Assembly (NCBI GenBank): GCA_943324165.2
Contig: CALPKO020000022.1
Location: forward strand, 1 to 10,161
DNA length: 10,161 nucleotides
Source of the DNA: Bdellovibrio sp. ZAP7
GTDB taxonomy: Bacteria; Bacteroidota; Bacteroidia; Flavobacteriales; Flavobacteriaceae
Direction: 5' to 3'
Positions 3,060 through 10,161 of the stretch are shown here, in pieces. The stretch's first letter is position 1, and every line of letters starts with the position of its first letter. Below the pieces are notes generated by a model. That model was given only the letters and a program-made list of their open reading frames with translations, was not told where the DNA came from and ran no database searches. The translations under genes were made by a program, and so were the position numbers.

Positions 3060-4391
3060 CTATTTATTCTTCACCGCATTCATCGGATTTCTTGCCGAAT
3101 CAGTAATCGAATAATCTTCATTTTCTTCTTCATCAAGAACCTCATTTTCGGTGGCATCTTCTTCTAATTGTTTGTCGATTAATTTATCCAACGCTATTTT
3201 TCTTTGTTCTCTTTCGTCTAATTCTTGTGCAATTTCTTCCTCTTTTTTGGTTACACTTATTATGATTCCAATAGCGATGCAAGTCATCCAAATGGAACTT
3301 CCTCCGCTACTTACCAATGGCAGCGTTTGTCCGGTAACTGGTAATAATTGAACTGCAACGCCCATATTAATTAATGCTTGAAAAATAATTGGAAACCCAA
3401 GTCCAACAACCAACAATCTTCCGAAAGGTGAATTGGCTTTGTGGGCAGCAATGATGAACCTAAAAAACAACAATAAATAAAGCAACAAAACCCCAAAACC
3501 TCCTATCAATCCATATTCTTCCACAATAATAGCGAAAATAAAATCTGAAGAAGATTGAGGCAAAAAGTTTTTCTGAACACTTTTTCCCGGCCCTAAACCA
3601 TAAACTCCACCGGAAGCGATAGCAGTTTTTGCTTTTTCAATTTGATAATCATCATCGGTTATTTCTTTATTGTTGGAAAAAAAATTTCCTACTCTATTTT
3701 CCCACGTTTTTACCCGCCCAAATATTTTTGGTGTGTTATCAGGATTCGTTTTTTCGACAACTTTTGCTGTGATAATAAACAAGGTAAAAAGAGCAATTCC
3801 GCCACCAATAACAATTGTAATGAACTTAAACGGATAATTTCCAACAAAAGTTAACATCAACACCATCGAAAATATTAGTGCTGCCGTTGAGAAATTGTTG
3901 GGCAAAATCAGCATTAATGTTATTCCTACAGGAATCCACAAATCGATAAATGAGGATTTAAAAGTCAATGGTTCCGTTTGTGTTTTAGACAAATACCTGG
4001 CAACATAAACCATTAAAACAATAAATGCCAAAGCAGAAGTTTGAAAAGAAATTCCCACAAACGGCACCTGAATCCATCGCGTTGCACTGCCTTGTTCTAC
4101 TCCAAAAAATAGGGTATATGTCAAAAGTATCCAAACAATTGGTAAAGCAATTCTTGAAATACTGCGAAAATAATGGTACGGTACTTTTTGAATTTGGTAA
4201 AGGATAAAAAATCCAAATATAATATGCACAGCATGTTTCAAAAGATAACCTAAGGTGTTCCCAGTGCCATGATTCATATAAGCCAAATTACTACTTGCAC
4301 TAAAAACAGGCATGAACGAAAACATGGCCAATAGCGCCACGAACGACCAAATGCCCTTGTCTCCTTTTAATGTGTTGAGTAATTTTATCAT
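3060..4391 (-). CDS. ftsW: SEDS peptidoglycan glycosyltransferase FtsW
   Basis: FtsW is the septal SEDS-family glycan polymerase that uses lipid II and works with FtsI. The 443-residue protein has about ten hydrophobic segments from residue 15 to 381. SEDS hallmarks are visible: YQIEKAKTAIASGGVYGLGPGKS at about 249-271 in the large extracytoplasmic loop, QSSSDFIFAIIVEEYGLIGG at about 279-298 including the conserved Asp-283, and NMGVAVQLLPVTGQTLPLVSSGGSS at about 342-366. The family also includes RodA and SpoVE; the location between murD and murG and next to the other dcw genes argues for FtsW. After the last membrane segment comes a cytoplasmic tail of about 60 residues (382-443), charged and then strongly acidic (EEDATENEVLDEEENEDY). 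The start lies 6 bases from the inverted-repeat tail of the four-helix-bundle insertion upstream. Confidence 0.95.
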   Translation of the reverse strand: MIKLLNTLKGDKGIWSFVALLAMFSFMPVFSASSNLAYMNHGTGNTLGYLLKHAVHIIFGFFILYQIQKVPYHYFRSISRIALPIVWILLTYTLFFGVEQGSATRWIQVPFVGISFQTSALAFIVLMVYVARYLSKTQTEPLTFKSSFIDLWIPVGITLMLILPNNFSTAALIFSMVLMLTFVGNYPFKFITIVIGGGIALFTLFIITAKVVEKTNPDNTPKIFGRVKTWENRVGNFFSNNKEITDDDYQIEKAKTAIASGGVYGLGPGKSVQKNFLPQSSSDFIFAIIVEEYGLIGGFGVLLLYLLLFFRFIIAAHKANSPFGRLLVVGLGFPIIFQALINMGVAVQLLPVTGQTLPLVSSGGSSIWMTCIAIGIIISVTKKEEEIAQELDEREQRKIALDKLIDKQLEEDATENEVLDEEENEDYSITDSARNPMNAVKNK

Positions 4392-4402
4392 ATTGTATTT
4401 AG

Positions 4403-4424
4403 AATTTAGATTTTAGAATTTAGA
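4403..4424. repeat. Inverted repeat arm, unit 1 left (TTTAGAA heptamers)
   Basis: These 22 bases are the exact reverse complement of 4832-4853. They lie in a tandem run of four 7-base units at 4398-4425 (TTTAGAA, TTTAGAT, TTTAGAA, TTTAGAA). In the mRNA this is the downstream arm, between the four-helix-bundle stop codon and the ftsW start codon. Confidence 0.9.
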
Positions 4425-4447
4425 ATTGTGCTAATCCTAAAATCTAA
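4406..4447 (-). other. Hairpin directly after the four-helix-bundle stop codon
   Basis: In the minus-strand RNA, 4447-4433 can pair with 4420-4406: 15 positions with one G-U wobble, and a 12-base loop at 4432-4421. The first base of the stem is one base after the TAA of the upstream gene. The downstream arm is the same sequence that can pair with the distal arm at 4832-4853, so the two folds exclude each other. The stem is A/U-rich and has no following U run, so it is not a classical intrinsic terminator; it may protect or process the mRNA, which is inference. Confidence 0.6.
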
Positions 4448-4448
4448 T

Positions 4449-4808
4449 TTATTTTGTATTTTTTATTTTACAATTCATTGTTTTTAATGTGCTTACAAAT
4501 ATTGAAGTCAACTCATTTCCTTCGTTCCAAACTATATCTAATTCTGTTTTATCAATCCAATTTTTATCGGAAATAATTTCTAACCAAAATAGAGTTTCGT
4601 CAGATTCTTCTAAAACAATATTCATTTTTGAAACAAACTCTCGATCGCTTCTAGCCCTGCATACAGCTCTGTAATTTGCACCGACTGAAGTTCCGCTTTT
4701 CACAATTTGATTAGAAATAACCCTTCCGGAAATTGTATTGGGTAGCTTTTCTACTAAATCAATAACCATCAATGAAAAGTTCTTTGTTCTAAATTTCAAA
4801 TCTGTCAT
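4449..4808 (-). CDS. Four-helix-bundle protein, S23 / 23S rRNA intervening-sequence family
   Basis: This intact 119-residue protein belongs to the S23/IVP family (four-helix bundle, structurally related to the Avd accessory protein of diversity-generating retroelements). The family signature is IVKSGTSVGANYRA at about 35-48, followed by ARSDREFVSKMNIVLEESDETLFWLEII at about 52-79, where SGTS.GAN, the R/SDREF segment and the E..ET.FWLE helix are typical. It is predicted all-helical with no membrane segment or catalytic motif. Cellular function is unknown for most family members; RNA or nucleic-acid binding is a reasonable inference from Avd and from basic surfaces, not something shown here. 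It sits alone between murD and ftsW, enclosed by inverted repeats, and has no functional link to peptidoglycan synthesis. It differs clearly from the broken paralogue at 6242-6601, so the two are not a recent duplication. Confidence 0.88.
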   Translation of the reverse strand: MTDLKFRTKNFSLMVIDLVEKLPNTISGRVISNQIVKSGTSVGANYRAVCRARSDREFVSKMNIVLEESDETLFWLEIISDKNWIDKTELDIVWNEGNELTSIFVSTLKTMNCKIKNTK

Positions 4809-4831
4809 TTTATTAATTATATTTTCTGAAA

Positions 4832-4853
4832 TCTAAATTCTAAAATCTAAATT
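4832..4853. repeat. Inverted repeat arm, unit 1 right (TTTAGAA heptamers)
   Basis: These 22 bases are the exact reverse complement of 4403-4424. On the minus strand the tract reads TTTGTAA, TTTAGAT, TTTAGAA, TTTAGAT (4858-4831) and begins at the base immediately after the murD stop codon. It is the upstream arm of the stem that could enclose the four-helix-bundle gene in the mRNA. Confidence 0.9.
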
Positions 4854-4858
4854 ACAAA

Positions 4859-6193
4859 TTACAAATCCTGCACTGCAGCTTTAAATTGATTTCCTCTGTC
4901 TTCATAGTTTTTAAACAAATCAAAACTTGCGCAACATGGCGAAAGTAAAACCGTATCGCCTTTTTCAGCTATGCGTTGTGATAATTTTACAGCATCTTGC
5001 ATATCATCTACTTCAATCATTATATCCACCACATTTCCAAAAGTATCGATGATCTTTTTATTGTCCATTCCCAGACAAACAATGGCTTTTACTTTTTCTC
5101 GAACCAACGACATCAATTCGGTGTAATCATTTCCTTTGTCCACACCTCCAACAATCCAAACTGTTGGCGCAGTCATGCTGTCTAAAGCATAGAACGTTGC
5201 GTTTACATTCGTGGCTTTTGAATCGTTAATGTATTGCACATGCTGAATTTTCAACACTTTTTCTAATCGATGTGGCACACCTTCAAAATTCGACATACTT
5301 TGTTTGATTGTCTCTTTTCTAATTTTGAGCAACTGCGCTACTGATGTTGCGGCCATTGCATTTTTAATATTGTGCTTTCCTTCTAGTGCTATGTCCATTG
5401 TGTCCATTGTAAATTCGTCGTTTTTAGTTATTATTTTCATGGTTGTGTTGTTTAATGATGCTCCAAATTCTAGTTGTTTTGAAATCGAAAAAGGAACTAT
5501 TTGTGCTTTTGTTTTGTTGTTTTTAAACCATTGTGCAATTGCTTCATCATCATCATCAAAAATTAAAAAGTCCTTTTCATCTTGCTTTTGCGTTATTCTA
5601 AACTTCGAGGCGATGTAATTTTCATATTTATATTCATACCTATCTAAATGATCCGGACTAATATTCAACAAAATCGCAATATGCGGTTTATACTCGAAGC
5701 AGCCATCTAATTGAAAACTGCTCAATTCTAAAACATAGATGTCAAAATCATTTTCTGCGACTTGCCAAGCAAAACTCTTTCCTATGTTTCCTCCTAAACC
5801 TACATTCAAACCAGCTGATTTTAGCAAATGGTAAGTCAACATCGTTGTAGTTGTTTTGCCATTGCTTCCTGTAATACCGACTGTAATTGCATTGGTGTAC
5901 GGAAAAGCAAACTCAATTTCGGAAATCACCGGAACTTTCTTTTCTATTAATTGCTTTACAATTGCAGATTTTTCAGGAATTCCGGGGCTTTTCATAACCA
6001 AATCGGCATTCAAAATCAGGCTTTCAGTATGTGTTTCGTCTTCCCATTCAATTTCATATTTATCAAGAACTTCCTTGTACTTCTCGTTTATTTTTCCAAA
6101 ATCAGAAACAAAAACTTCAAATCCTTCTTTTTTCCCTAAAATTGCGGTTCCCACGCCACTTTCTCCGCCTCCTAGGATCACTAATCTTTTCAT
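4859..6193 (-). CDS. murD: UDP-N-acetylmuramoyl-L-alanine--D-glutamate ligase (MurD)
   Basis: MurD is a cytoplasmic ATP-dependent ligase that adds D-glutamate to UDP-MurNAc-L-Ala. The 444-residue product has the N-terminal Rossmann domain (VILGGGESGVGTA at about 5-17, MKSPGIP at about 67-73), the central ATPase domain with the P-loop GITGSNGKTTTT at 106-117, LELSSFQL and NISPDHLDRY, then GKHNIKNAMAA and the C-terminal domain with NDSKATNVNAT and LLSPCCASFDLFKNYEDRGNQF. The NDSKATN and SP.CASFD..KNYEDRG motifs distinguish MurD from MurC, MurE and MurF. Length is normal. It is bracketed by two four-helix-bundle insertions. Its ATG lies 3 bases downstream of the ATTACGA-type repeat, so the repeat makes up its whole 5' leader; translation may depend on unfolding that repeat. 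Confidence 0.97.
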   Translation of the reverse strand: MKRLVILGGGESGVGTAILGKKEGFEVFVSDFGKINEKYKEVLDKYEIEWEDETHTESLILNADLVMKSPGIPEKSAIVKQLIEKKVPVISEIEFAFPYTNAITVGITGSNGKTTTTMLTYHLLKSAGLNVGLGGNIGKSFAWQVAENDFDIYVLELSSFQLDGCFEYKPHIAILLNISPDHLDRYEYKYENYIASKFRITQKQDEKDFLIFDDDDEAIAQWFKNNKTKAQIVPFSISKQLEFGASLNNTTMKIITKNDEFTMDTMDIALEGKHNIKNAMAATSVAQLLKIRKETIKQSMSNFEGVPHRLEKVLKIQHVQYINDSKATNVNATFYALDSMTAPTVWIVGGVDKGNDYTELMSLVREKVKAIVCLGMDNKKIIDTFGNVVDIMIEVDDMQDAVKLSQRIAEKGDTVLLSPCCASFDLFKNYEDRGNQFKAAVQDL

Positions 6194-6196
6194 TTT

Positions 6197-6247
6197 AAAT
6201 TACGAATTACGAATTACGAATTCTCAATTGTCAATCAATTTTCAATT
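6197..6247. repeat. Heptameric tail and inverted arm, unit 2 left
   Basis: Read on the minus strand this tract is a chain of 7-base units that all begin AATT: AATTGAA, AATTGAT, a 4-base TGAC, AATTGAG, then AATTCGT three times and a final AATTT. The stop codon of the broken four-helix-bundle gene falls inside the first unit. The AATTCGT part (6197-6216) is the exact inverse of 6614-6633. Confidence 0.85.
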
Positions 6248-6601
6248 GGCATTTTTTTTCTTTATTGCAATTTGAATACTTCCCAAAATTTTGCAAATTT
6301 CTTCTGCATCATTAAAAAGACTTTCAAATTCCTCTGTTTTTATATAATCTGTTTCCTTTAATAGCTTTAACCAATAAATGGTTTCCCGTGTTTCTTTGTA
6401 AGAAATACTAATTTTTGATAAAAAATCTCTTTCTGACTGTCCTCCAATTGATTCTTCAATATTTGCTCCTATTGAAGTACCACTTCTTAATATTTGTTTG
6501 CTTAACACGAACTATTTCTTCTCATTTGTTAAGTATTTGTATAAATTTATTATTCTAACAGCAAACAAAAAAGATTTCTGTTGAACAATATTTTCTTTCA
6601 T
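6242..6601 (-). pseudogene. Four-helix-bundle (S23/IVP family) gene interrupted by one TAG codon
   Basis: From the ATG at 6601-6599 the frame runs 120 codons to a TGA at 6244-6242, the same length as the intact relative at 4449-4808. The product would start MKENIVQQKSFLFAVRIINL, continue through YKYLTNEKK, meet a TAG at 6514-6512 (codon 30), and continue FVLSKQILRSGTSIGANIEE, with SERDFLSKISISYKETRETIYWLKLLKETDYI further on. The frame is unchanged across the stop and both sides match the family: most members read 'K-E-(Y/F)-V-L-S-K-Q' here, so the TAG probably replaces a Glu (GAG) or Gln codon. This suggests a recent single-base loss. A GTG at 6508-6506, two codons after the TAG, could allow re-initiation of an 88-residue C-terminal part lacking helix 1. 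Its sequence differs from the other copy (ANIEESIGGQS versus ANYRAVCRARS). Confidence 0.85.
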
Positions 6602-6605
6602 AATA

Positions 6606-6633
6606 ATAATTTTTAATTCGTAATTCGTAATTT
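6606..6633. repeat. 28-bp direct repeat, copy A (also inverted arm of unit 2)
   Basis: This sequence is identical over 28 bases to 8050-8077, in the same orientation. Its 20 bases at 6614-6633 are the exact inverse of 6197-6216. On the minus strand it holds two ATTACGA units and lies between the mraY stop and the ATG of the four-helix-bundle gene. Confidence 0.9.
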
Positions 6634-6641
6634 CTAATTGA

Positions 6642-7918: not shown

Positions 7919-7930
7919 TTATTCGAATAA
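7919..7930. repeat. 12-bp perfect palindrome upstream of mraY
   Basis: TTATTCGAATAA is its own reverse complement and lies between the 21-bp tandem repeats and the mraY leader. It could be a weak protein-binding site, but AT-rich 12-mers of this kind arise by chance and no partner is evident. Confidence 0.4.
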
Positions 7931-7931
7931 T

Positions 7932-7994
7932 CATTTCTCCCGGTGGAAAAACCATTCCTCCCGGTGGAAAAATCACTTCTCCTGGTGGAAAAAC
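7932..7994. repeat. Three-copy 21-bp tandem repeat in the murE-mraY spacer
   Basis: Three adjacent 21-base units (7932-7952, 7953-7973, 7974-7994) share the core CTCC(C/T)GGTGGAAAAA and differ at about five positions; the first bases of a fourth follow at 7995. The G/C-rich core stands out from the AT-rich surroundings. Because 21 is a multiple of 3, all frames stay open through the array. On the minus strand a 27-codon ORF (ATG 7997-7995, TAG 7916-7914) reads MVFPPGE, VIFPPGG, MVFPPGE, MIIRIN. The leader before this ATG shows no clear initiation signal, so I treat it as a repeat with a possible peptide and not as an established gene. Confidence 0.9.
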
Positions 7995-8049
7995 CATTTT
8001 TGACAGATTGAAAATCGTTTTTAATAACGCTATAAGAACTTCAACAACG

Positions 8050-8077
8050 ATAATTTTTAATTCGTAATTCGTAATTT
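8050..8077. repeat. 28-bp direct repeat, copy B (solo ATTACGA-type repeat after murE)
   Basis: This sequence is identical to 6606-6633 and in the same orientation. It begins 5 bases after the murE stop, as copy A begins 8 bases after the mraY stop. Unlike copy A it has no inverted partner nearby and no four-helix-bundle gene, so it may be the remnant of a lost unit or an independent insertion of the tail alone. Confidence 0.9.
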
Positions 8078-8082
8078 AAAAC

Positions 8083-9546
8083 TCATTTCCCTAACAATTC
8101 TAATATTTCAGAAACCGTTTCCATATCATCAAAATGATGTCTAATGCCATCAATTTCTTGGTAATTTTCGTGTCCTTTTCCTGCAATTAAAATAATGTCG
8201 TTGGTTTGTGCCAATTGACAAGCCATTTTGATTGCCTGTTTCCTATCTATTATTGAAACAGCCTTTTTATAGTTTTGAGGTTCAACACCTTTCTCCATTT
8301 CTTCGATAATGGTTTGAGGGTTTTCCGTCCGAGGATTGTCTGATGTAATAATCACTTTGTCACTCAACATCGAAGCAATATTCGCCATTATTGGTCGTTT
8401 GGTTTTGTCTCGATCGCCGCCACAACCCACCACTGTAATCAATTGTTCGTTTTTTGTACGAATGTCGTTGATGGTTTTCAATACGTTTTCTAAAGCATCT
8501 GGCGTATGGGCGTAATCTACAATGGCCGTAATTTTTTCGTTAGAAACTATGAACTGAAATCTGCCTGAAACACTTTCTAATTCAGATAAAATGCGCAAAA
8601 CTTCGAGATTATCTAACCCCAATTCTACCGCGGTGCCATAAATCGCCAATAGATTATAAGCATTAAAAGTGCCAATCAATCGCACCCAAACCTCATTATT
8701 ATTGATTTTTAACAATAATCCTGACAGTTGATTTTCTAAAATCTGTGCTTTATAATCGGCATACGTTTTCAGTGCGTAGGTCAATTTTCTGGCCGCAGTG
8801 TTTTGCAACATCACCATGCCATTTTTGTCGTCGATATTCGTTAATGCAAAAGCAGTTTTTGGTAAATCGTCAAAAAAAGCTTTTTTTACATCTCTGTACT
8901 CTGCAAAAGTTTTGTGATAATCTAAGTGATCGTGTGTAATGTTGGAGAAAATTCCGCCAGCAAAAGTTAGCGCTTCCGTTCTTTTTTGATGAATTCCGTG
9001 AGAACTTACTTCCATAAAACAAAACTGAACCCCATCAGCAACCATTTCTCTCAAAAATCGATTAATTGTAAGCGAATCAGGTGTTGTATGCGTAGCTTTA
9101 TATTCTTTTTCATCAACCAAAATCTTCACTGTCGAAAGCAATCCGACTTTAAAACCAGCTTTTTTAAACAATTGATACAGTAAAGAAGCAACTGTTGTTT
9201 TGCCATTTGTGCCGGTAATTCCAACTAATTTTAAATCTTTTGATGGATTATCATAAAAGTTAGCCGCCATAATTGCCAACGCTTTGTTAGTGTCTTTCAC
9301 TTGTATGTAAGTAATTCCAACAACAATATTTTCTGGAAATACATCACAAACAATTGCGACAGCGCCAAGACTAATAGCTTTTTCAATAAAATCGTGACCG
9401 TCTGAAATCGTGCCACGGATTGCTACAAAAACATCGTTTTGTGCAATTTTTCTCGAATCGAAATCAATTGCATTGATGTTTACATCTGCGTTTCCTTTGA
9501 TGGCCTCGATGTTGACTTTATATAATATTTCTTTTAAGACGTTCAC
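8083..9546 (-). CDS. murE: UDP-MurNAc-L-Ala-D-Glu--meso-diaminopimelate ligase (MurE)
   Basis: MurE is the cytoplasmic ATP-dependent ligase that adds the third stem-peptide residue. The 487-residue protein has the N-terminal UDP-binding domain (IDFDSRKI at about 27-34, VAIRGTISDGHDFI at 41-54), the central ATPase domain with the P-loop GITGTNGKTT at 109-118, HTTPDSLT at 153-160, MEVSSHGIHQKR at 178-189, NITHDHLDYH at 202-211 and the lysine pair at 221-222 where the family's carbamylated lysine lies, then VDYAHTPDALE at 343-353. DNPR at 403-406 is the meso-DAP specificity motif, as opposed to lysine-type enzymes. The start is GTG (9546-9544), overlapping the ftsI stop as GTGA; this codon fits the family N-terminus (VLKEILYKV) and implies translational coupling with ftsI. 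Confidence 0.98.
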   Translation of the reverse strand: MNVLKEILYKVNIEAIKGNADVNINAIDFDSRKIAQNDVFVAIRGTISDGHDFIEKAISLGAVAIVCDVFPENIVVGITYIQVKDTNKALAIMAANFYDNPSKDLKLVGITGTNGKTTVASLLYQLFKKAGFKVGLLSTVKILVDEKEYKATHTTPDSLTINRFLREMVADGVQFCFMEVSSHGIHQKRTEALTFAGGIFSNITHDHLDYHKTFAEYRDVKKAFFDDLPKTAFALTNIDDKNGMVMLQNTAARKLTYALKTYADYKAQILENQLSGLLLKINNNEVWVRLIGTFNAYNLLAIYGTAVELGLDNLEVLRILSELESVSGRFQFIVSNEKITAIVDYAHTPDALENVLKTINDIRTKNEQLITVVGCGGDRDKTKRPIMANIASMLSDKVIITSDNPRTENPQTIIEEMEKGVEPQNYKKAVSIIDRKQAIKMACQLAQTNDIILIAGKGHENYQEIDGIRHHFDDMETVSEILELLGK

Positions 9547-10161
9547 GATAATTCTAAGATTATTGTTTTTGATTTATCCAACTTTACCCCAGGATTAAGC
9601 GATTGTTTTTTAACTTTTCCAACGCCAATGGCTTTTACTTTTATGCCTAGATTTTCCAGCAATGTTACCGCATCCATACCTGACATCCCTTTTACATTCG
9701 GAATCGTATCGTATTTCAAAGCTACTTTTTCGTCAAATCGATTAAAATTTCTTTCTTGACTTTGATTTTTCTTTTTCAAATTTTTAACCACATTCATCGT
9801 TGGCGAATCTGTAAAAATCTTTTGTGCAATTCGTTTAAAAACGGGTCCCGCAACATCAGCTCCGTAATAATTATTGTTAATGGTACTTGGTTTATGCACT
9901 ACAACAATACAAGAATATTTAGGGGCATCTGCTGGAAAAAATCCAACAAAAGACGAAGCATAATATTGGTCTGCACCACCATTTTTGGCGTAATCTACTT
10001 GTGCAGTTCCTGTTTTTCCTGCCATCGAAAAATCGCGAGAATACAATTTAGAACCGGTTCCTTTTTTAACCACATTTTTCAAAACTGCCGTTACTTTCGC
10101 AACCGTTTCATCTGAACAGATCTTAGGATTAATCACAATTTTATCAAACTTTTTGATGGTA
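9543..10161 (-). CDS. ftsI: Septal peptidoglycan transpeptidase FtsI/PBP3-type with PASTA domain (C-terminal part; 5' end outside window)
   Basis: The frame is open from the right edge to a TGA at 9545-9543, giving 205 complete residues of the C-terminus. The visible part holds the third active-site motif of penicillin-binding transpeptidases, KTGTAQ, at visible residues 49-54, followed by YYASSFVGFFPADAPKYSCIVVVHKP at about 66-91, the usual end of the transpeptidase domain. After a basic linker (about 126-148) comes one PASTA domain at about 149-205 (IPNVKGMSGMDAVTLLENLGIKV). The SxxK and SxN motifs lie upstream of the window. FtsI crosslinks septal peptidoglycan in the periplasm, partnered with FtsW. 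Position immediately before murE with a 4-base overlap supports FtsI over the elongation enzyme PBP2. Confidence 0.93.
   Translation of the reverse strand, partial: TIKKFDKIVINPKICSDETVAKVTAVLKNVVKKGTGSKLYSRDFSMAGKTGTAQVDYAKNGGADQYYASSFVGFFPADAPKYSCIVVVHKPSTINNNYYGADVAGPVFKRIAQKIFTDSPTMNVVKNLKKKNQSQERNFNRFDEKVALKYDTIPNVKGMSGMDAVTLLENLGIKVKAIGVGKVKKQSLNPGVKLDKSKTIILELS

Follow-up and report, generated by a model that had tools for sequence, protein, structure and literature searches.

What is the element that fills the gap between murD and an ftsW/rodA-family gene in this genome of the Flavobacterium group (1.85 Mb, 68% complete, 335 contigs), and what maintains it inside an essential operon? 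The window, by which we mean the whole stretch of 10,161 nucleotides analysed here, carries the mur operon on its minus strand according to a profile scan. The gap comprises positions 4392-4858 (467 nt), nearly all of which belongs to the element that we call unit 1. The features needed for the argument are these.

3060..4391, minus strand: ftsW/rodA-family gene, downstream of unit 1, ATG at 4391-4389; best profile TIGR02614, 264.7 bits, below that profile's own cut-off of 337.5
4398..4427, no strand: 3' arm of unit 1 (gene sense), inverted heptamer array, its last base 6 bases before the ftsW ATG
4403..4424 pairing with 4832..4853, no strand: perfect 22-base arms
4449..4808, minus strand: intact S23/IVP-family four-helix-bundle gene, 119 aa (ORF list, PF05635, TIGR02436, predicted fold)
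4829..4858, no strand: 5' arm of unit 1 (gene sense), heptamer array, its first base directly after the murD stop
4859..6193, minus strand: murD, upstream of unit 1; TIGR01087, 407.5 bits; stop TAA at 4859-4861
6193..6638, minus strand: unit 2, in the mraY-murD gap, with AATTACG arms at about 6193-6222 and 6608-6638
8049..8081, no strand: solo array of the unit 2 word, lacking a gene, in the mraY-murE gap

The original prediction held that perfect 22-base inverted arms, lying in tracts that run from the first base past the murD stop to a point 6 bases short of the ftsW ATG, enclose an intact gene for a 119-residue four-helix bundle, and each part of this description is borne out. The longest perfect inverted pair in the gap is indeed 22 nt long, compared to a maximum of 14 and a mean of 9.3 in 60 dinucleotide shuffles, and the tract limits agree with the coordinates given above. 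When extended to 31 nt (4397-4427 and 4829-4859), the arms are 90% complementary, and their sequence is a tandem array of the heptamer TTTAGAA/TTTTAGA. In the predicted fold of the transcript the two arms close the S23 gene (z -3.95; none of 100 shuffles does as well), giving a predicted stem of the type in which terminal inverted repeats enclose the ORF of an intervening sequence (IVS). Besides the S23 gene, unit 1 holds one further ORF of at least 60 aa, an antisense frame of 61 aa, and an Rfam scan of the window gave no match at gathering scores.

Membership of the encoded protein in the S23/IVP family is established by profile scores of 50.4 bits for PF05635 (cut-off 33.8) and 78.4 bits for TIGR02436 (cut-off 24). 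PF05635 is the only domain above its cut-off in a domain scan, which gave no known catalytic domain. AlphaFold2 modeling from an alignment of 30 sequences, across which Q34, S41, N45, and E71 are invariant, predicts a four-helix bundle with a pLDDT of 96.3. Foldseek retrieves the S23-family protein 2rld from Bacteroides (E 1.7e-6, TM 0.81-0.84 normalised to the query), 2gsc (Xcc0516; E 2e-3), and, more weakly, Avd (4dwl) and the ribonucleoprotein 8ub7 of a diversity-generating retroelement (DGR), both with E of about 0.04-0.05. Five chains are listed for each of 2rld and 2gsc, and the title of the 2gsc paper speaks of 'five four-helix bundles'. Structures of this family have been solved since 2006-2007, judging by their release dates, and one was deposited as a 'protein with unknown function'. 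Selection was assessed on eight of the nine S23 genes found at murD-ftsW in the genus, the ninth (L230, which has an internal stop) being excluded by length. Values of dN/dS are 0.04-0.22 in the 18 of 28 gene pairs listed with dS <1.5, and the median pN/pS over all 28 pairs is 0.21. These low ratios indicate that selection maintains the coding function of the gene.

A MurD homologue of some kind is present in all 121 genus genomes drawn, and the murD-ftsW gap was parsed in 90 of them (30 loci and 60 fetched). Nine of these gaps hold a unit-1-type S23 gene, with L230 as the one interrupted copy, 36 hold a gene-less hairpin, defined as one above the 95th percentile of a shuffle null, 17 are no longer than 40 nt, and 28 fall into none of these classes. 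The gap therefore often holds something of the build of unit 1, most often a gene-less hairpin. Moreover, filled, empty, and gene-less states are found among very close relatives. The 450-nt unit of G048 is replaced in G040 by a gap of 25 nt with flanks that are 95.2% and 98.8% identical, and G068, which is 91-94% identical to G048, has a gene-less hairpin. Similarly, G006 has a unit and G063 a gene-less hairpin of another word, with the compared flanks being 94.7% identical. For the genome of the window, the nearest gene-less relatives are just 78% identical at murD-ftsW. A quick FtsW/MurD tree of 90 rows gives six changes of S23 state, but this tree is weakly supported, with 12 of its 80 inner branches starred. 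Among the gene-less hairpins of this gap, the most frequent word (GTTTCAAG type) is not one of the arm words listed in our genus survey.

These comparisons bear on several expectations of the original prediction. Relatives lacking the unit do exist, as G040 with its near-identical flanks makes clear, but the hope that they would define the exact ends of the insertion was disappointed. Filled and empty alleles differ throughout the gap and have no recognisable gap sequence in common, so that neither insertion ends nor a target duplication can be read from them. We found no sign of a target duplication or excision product, and no nuclease or recombinase. The idea of a one-off independent insertion has to be given up, given that the same gene type occupies murD-ftsW in nine of 90 genomes and is conserved as a protein. 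On the other hand, the proposal that intergenic gaps are the target has gained support, since gaps between genes recur as sites.

Covariation of arm sequence with protein subgroup had been set as a test beforehand, and the outcome is positive at unrelated loci. We surveyed the genus using best-scoring matches, which are skewed to well-conserved genes, and obtained 141 unique units from 161 loci; nine units have a stop within the 119-codon window, and single linkage places the 141 in 27 locus groups. For the 136 units with at least 100 nt of flank on both sides, the median arm complementarity is 38, compared to 18 in mismatched pairs. Of these real pairs, 84 exceed the 95th percentile and 29 the 99th percentile of the mismatched-pair null, the upper tail of which is raised by the same-subgroup pairs that it includes. 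The arms are specifically inverted because same-strand similarity of the two flanks is not raised (median 19, with 3/136 above the 99th percentile of the null). Covariation was evaluated for the 93 units with an arm score of at least 30 (43 were dropped), using the 3902 of their 4278 pairs that have no common flank protein. Protein identity and arm similarity are correlated (Spearman 0.30), a value reached in none of 1000 Mantel permutations (maximum 0.137). Mean arm similarity is 0.21 below 25% protein identity (n = 1852), flat at about 0.27 from 30 to 50% identity, 0.44 at 50-70% (n = 217), and 0.62 at 70% or more (n = 22). In addition, the nearest arm comes from the same protein subgroup for 61 of 88 units at a 40% identity threshold (expected 14.8), for 45/80 at 50% (expected 5.6), and for 29/38 at 60% (expected 1.6). 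The effect can be seen in a single gap, where the unit-1-type genes of L075, L082, and L083 have TTTAGA/AGTTAGA-like arms; the homologous gap of L002 in the genome of the window, assigned by matching the upstream gene by eye, holds a gene of a different subgroup with GGAAG arms. Over close to moderate protein distances, the array word goes with the protein. With empty sites in existence and arms that track the subgroup, the original prediction survives both of the outcomes that it had named as fatal, namely a lack of empty-site relatives and arms unrelated to subgroup.

Autocorrelation of the 5' arms defines the repeat period. For Flavobacterium units with a score of at least 30, the values are 0.58 at lag 7 and 0.56 at lag 14, with a shoulder of 0.43 at lag 8, and for ten named genomes outside Flavobacterium they are 0.72 and 0.71; other lags give 0.23-0.43. 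The arms thus have a tandem 7-nt period like the STRR sequences of Cyanobacteria, which are heptamer repeats, and an earlier description of the arms as mixed motifs of 7-10 nt was abandoned after this analysis. Arm length has quartiles of 29, 34, and 38 nt (n = 93), or about five heptamers. The 5' arm is poor in C (6.5% compared to 16.7% in the flanks), and G exceeds C in 81/93 Flavobacterium arms and in 25/33 other loci, the latter being part of their set. The same layout is present in other phyla. The best 80 of 135 loci from a scan of species genomes include Bacteroidota (Flavobacterium among them), Planctomycetota, Verrucomicrobiota, Cyanobacteria, Chloroflexota, Deltaproteobacteria, a Methylobacter, a Ruminococcus, and others; of the 79 usable loci in this set, some of them Flavobacterium, 56 exceed the 95th percentile for mismatched pairs. 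So do 23 of 30 units (30 of 54 matches) from the ten named genomes outside Flavobacterium. One Nostoc unit, L377, has GGGGAGT arms. A link of S23 units to the G-rich repeats of Xanthomonas and Nostoc is a prediction at this stage; among the loci fetched for the period analysis, GGGGAATCGGGGAA has no match.

The genome of the window itself contains nine S23 genes. Inspected by eye, each has a separate repeat word in its flanks, with the exception of the close paralogues L006 and L009, and a single flank is visible for the four of the nine loci located at contig ends. These four (L004, L006, L008, and L009) lie within 60 nt of the end, as if the assembly breaks there. Upstream of L006, at L254:14774-15064, GATTAACG heptamers are organized in a higher-order 56-nt repeat, with six units visible. 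The S23 gene of unit 2 is interrupted by one in-frame TAG, and an uninterrupted relative with AATTAAAAATTAG-type arms is located in the mraY-murD gap of G106 (L036). The mraY-murE gap, in addition to the solo array, contains three copies of a CTCCCGGTGGAAAAACCATT-type sequence at 21-nt spacing (7925-7998), which are unrelated to the heptamers.

Arm words also occur away from S23 genes, and we asked how far their genome-wide load follows the cognate subgroup. In 121 Flavobacterium genomes, the GATTAACG word has 558 matches and the reversed word 27. The load of the GATTAACG word tracks its own S23 subgroup (p = 1.4e-6), and this association persists in phylogenetically independent pairs (5.9 the same way, 0 opposite, median p 0.03), although some of the matches come from the arms of the S23 gene itself. 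When words and subgroups are swapped there is no association (p 0.99 and 0.31). The word of unit 1 likewise tracks its own gene genome-wide if phylogeny is not controlled for (p = 3e-5), but this association vanishes in phylogenetically independent pairs (1.4 the same way, 1.5 opposite) and we have rejected it as evidence. A reversed-pattern control for three copies of TTTAGAW was discarded as invalid, the reversed word being approximately the same tandem repeat in another register. Arrays can also be abundant where no cognate S23 gene was found, as with 104 GATTAACG matches in G056 and 123 TTTAGA matches in G091. For G056, the gene may have been lost or missed, or the arrays may have spread without it.

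A second case is provided by an S23 subgroup of Nostoc and Scytonema (SLVYEKAYKF), the TCAGTTA arms of which are the reverse complement of TAACTGA. At an identity of at least 70%, this subgroup occurs in 15 of 118 genomes of the Nostoc family, and exact three-unit TAACTGA arrays have a median of 65 in these 15 genomes compared to 0 in the other 103 (p = 1.1e-5, kinship ignored). The load does not differ between the 48 genomes with more distant S23 matches only and the 55 with none at E 1e-12 (p = 0.13). The array count ranges from 0 to 569 within the family, and arrays are present in 49 of the 103 genomes lacking the subgroup. Five of the 15 subgroup genes are interrupted, four by one internal stop and one by being split. 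Eight have clear TCAGTTA arms (one single-sided) in genomes with 13 to 569 TAACTGA matches, and three have partial arms in genomes with 6, 62, and 83 matches. The remaining four have other words, these being CAGTGAC in L407 and AGTAAAC in L410 (0 TAACTGA matches), a CAGTGAA-like word in L404 (7), and CAGTCAC in L408 of G200, although that genome has 154 TAACTGA arrays. The notion that TAACTGA load is absent exactly where the arms of the subgroup have changed is contradicted by G200. The reversed control, three copies of ATTGACT, has 196-255 matches in G163, G236, and G244, which probably represent another heptamer family.

Most of the dispersed sites that we sampled lie outside ORFs of at least 100 codons (18/20 for GATTAACG, 17/20 for TAACTGA). 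Hairpins above the 95th percentile of mononucleotide shuffles were found at 10/20 and 7/20 of these sites, respectively, implying that many dispersed arrays are one-sided or degenerate. A hairpin score of at least 26 is reached by 67 of the 201 intergenic gaps in 400 kb of G109, compared to 4 in shuffles. Several of these hairpins have the GGTTCTAAG-type word that belongs to an S23 subgroup; other families have no visible S23 link. Such hairpins are found in 14/127 gaps over 219 kb of the genome of the window, with 2 in shuffles. Other dispersed, gene-less hairpin families in G109 (L270-L289) are GTCATTTCGACGAAGGAG, GCCACAGATTAAAAGGATT, and CGCAAAGTTCGCAAAG.

Unit 1 resembles several known systems in part. 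The IVS elements in the 23S rRNA genes of Leptospira and Coxiella also have an S23-family ORF closed by terminal inverted repeats into a long stem (28 bp in Coxiella; PMC4990558), and an earlier proposal cited in the same paper is that the S23 ORF serves mobility. Unit 1 differs in being located between the protein genes murD and ftsW rather than in 16S or 23S rRNA, and in having heptamer arrays as arms, with a word that matches the protein subgroup. S23-family genes have been described in insertions in both 16S and 23S rRNA of CPR bacteria (PMC11270868) and between genes of cas operons (PMC3936711), as would suit an element that lodges between genes and in RNA loops where it is tolerated. RAYT genes are found near, and are matched to, short repeats that are also dispersed as inverted doublets with predicted hairpins, the REPINs (PMC3116915). 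The S23 gene is flanked by a repeat matched to its subgroup, and gene-less arrays are dispersed elsewhere, with 10/20 and 7/20 of the sampled sites giving hairpins above the shuffle null. RAYT is a tyrosine transposase, whereas the S23 protein has PF05635 as its only domain above cut-off, and the S23 repeat is a heptamer array. The Avd protein of DGRs has the same four-helix bundle (4dwl, 8ub7), a resemblance to PF05635 having been noted in PMC10053308, and works with a partner DGR enzyme (PMC10053308). There is no reverse transcriptase among the seven window ORFs scanned, a set without ORFs 578-1930 and 9543-10136.

Heptamer repeats have themselves been described in bacteria. In the Beggiatoaceae genome treated by MacGregor (2015), most TAACTGA repeats lie just upstream of start codons, and the repeat is reported from Cyanobacteria and five Bacteroidetes as well (PMC4679880). 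For its spread 'no mechanism is evident' according to that article, which proposes a post-transcriptional regulator (PMC4679880). For the GGGAATC and GGGGA(C/T)T heptamers, Rehm (2015) generally sees no link to mobile elements. These repeats share with the arrays described here a period of 7, a mainly intergenic location that is partly near start codons, and a partial arrangement in inverted pairs, and many genes in one S23 subgroup have TAACTGA as their arm word. In a term search, neither article was found to mention S23, four-helix, or intervening sequence. S23 ORFs in stem-closed IVS elements, the idea of their mobility, and heptamer repeats are thus already known. In a literature search that covered few subscription papers, we recognised no paper joining S23/PF05635 to heptamer arrays, and to this extent the association of S23 genes with subgroup-specific heptamer words in intergenic units appears to be new.

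On balance, and with moderate confidence, we view unit 1 as one of a widespread set of modules in which an S23/IVP (Avd-like) protein and a cognate heptamer hairpin, presumably recognised by a pentamer, form what is probably a tolerated selfish pair. Outside rRNA, such a combination is probably the counterpart of RAYT and REPIN, binding and mobility being inferred. By analogy to its solved relatives, the S23 protein would assemble as a pentameric ring, and this ring might recognise the array at approximately one heptamer per subunit, a proposal suggested by the median arm of 34 nt, which corresponds to about five heptamers. Transcription of the operon would place both arms in one RNA, where they could pair, and the recognition target may be the hairpin formed by RNA or by single-stranded DNA. 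Gene-less arrays would then be non-autonomous copies on which the protein acts in trans. The pair would persist in operon gaps as a tolerated selfish element, an intergenic counterpart of the S23 rRNA IVS. Copying could be carried out by a cellular polymerase or reverse transcriptase, much as Avd works with a partner enzyme. Recognition might serve the spread of arrays (as for RAYT/REPIN), the processing or protection of transcripts (as for an IVS), or control of the next gene (as for TRAP). We favor spread for three reasons: relatives differ widely in array load, alleles switch at one site, and the unit would need no enzyme of its own if the copying were left to a cellular polymerase or reverse transcriptase.

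An unlikely alternative is that the S23 protein is a host regulator. The S23 ring, similar to that of TRAP, would bind heptamer leaders of mRNAs and control the genes behind them together with its own gene, the arrays being host operators. Purifying selection on the protein is consistent with such a role, as is the fact that units stay put in few locus groups, and the 3' arms of murD-ftsW units reach the next start codon or stop just short of it. The position of TAACTGA upstream of start codons, and the regulator proposed for it (PMC4679880), point in the same direction. However, the content and the words of the murD-ftsW gap switch among very close relatives, which argues that there is no stable regulon at this gap, TAACTGA arrays vary from 0 to 569 within one family, and the predicted functions of genes downstream of TAACTGA are without pattern in MacGregor's genome (PMC4679880).

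It is also improbable, in our judgement, that protein and array do not interact at all. Here, arrays would arise in gaps by replication slippage and template switching, S23 genes would be old residents, and the match between the two would reflect common descent together with gene conversion of the arms. The arms are tandem and degenerate, like slippage products, most units are passed on at a fixed locus (the 141 units form 27 locus groups), and arrays lacking a cognate gene are common. Moreover, the word of unit 1 fails to track its gene after phylogenetic pairing, and G200 is rich in TAACTGA arrays despite the other arms on its subgroup gene. Common descent and conversion are, however, difficult to reconcile with a match that extends across unrelated loci and peaks at high protein identity, with distinct subgroups that keep distinct words in one genome or gap, and with a GATTAACG load that follows its subgroup in independent pairs. 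Finally, an ordinary transposon or IS remnant carrying S23 as a passenger gene, for which terminal inverted arms and filled/empty alleles might speak, is scarcely credible given that unit 1 has no transposase gene and no ORF of at least 60 aa besides the S23 gene and the 61-aa antisense frame, that its arms are heptamer arrays varying between units instead of a single fixed terminal sequence, and that the same build recurs with S23-family genes in many phyla.

The selfish pair of S23 protein and heptamer hairpin that we prefer for unit 1 may have a wider counterpart, which we offer tentatively, as possible though doubtful. S23 proteins in general would be pan-bacterial heptamer-array proteins, forming pentameric rings with one heptamer per subunit and copying or moving their own array, so that heptamer repeats are their footprints and the rRNA IVS is a special case. 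If this were true, the heptamer repeats of Cyanobacteria, Beggiatoaceae, Xanthomonas, and Bacteroidota would be footprints of S23 proteins, and a borrowed cellular reverse transcriptase would perhaps be involved, as in the partnership of Avd with the DGR enzyme. There is a realistic chance that the hairpin-closed intergenic S23 element is the key to a larger class. The heptamer repeats of bacteria have so far been without an agent, and the match between S23 subgroup and array word provides a candidate mechanism for them, even inside essential operons. Because this match is subgroup-specific, the function of S23 proteins and the origin of the heptamers both become directly testable by a binding assay.
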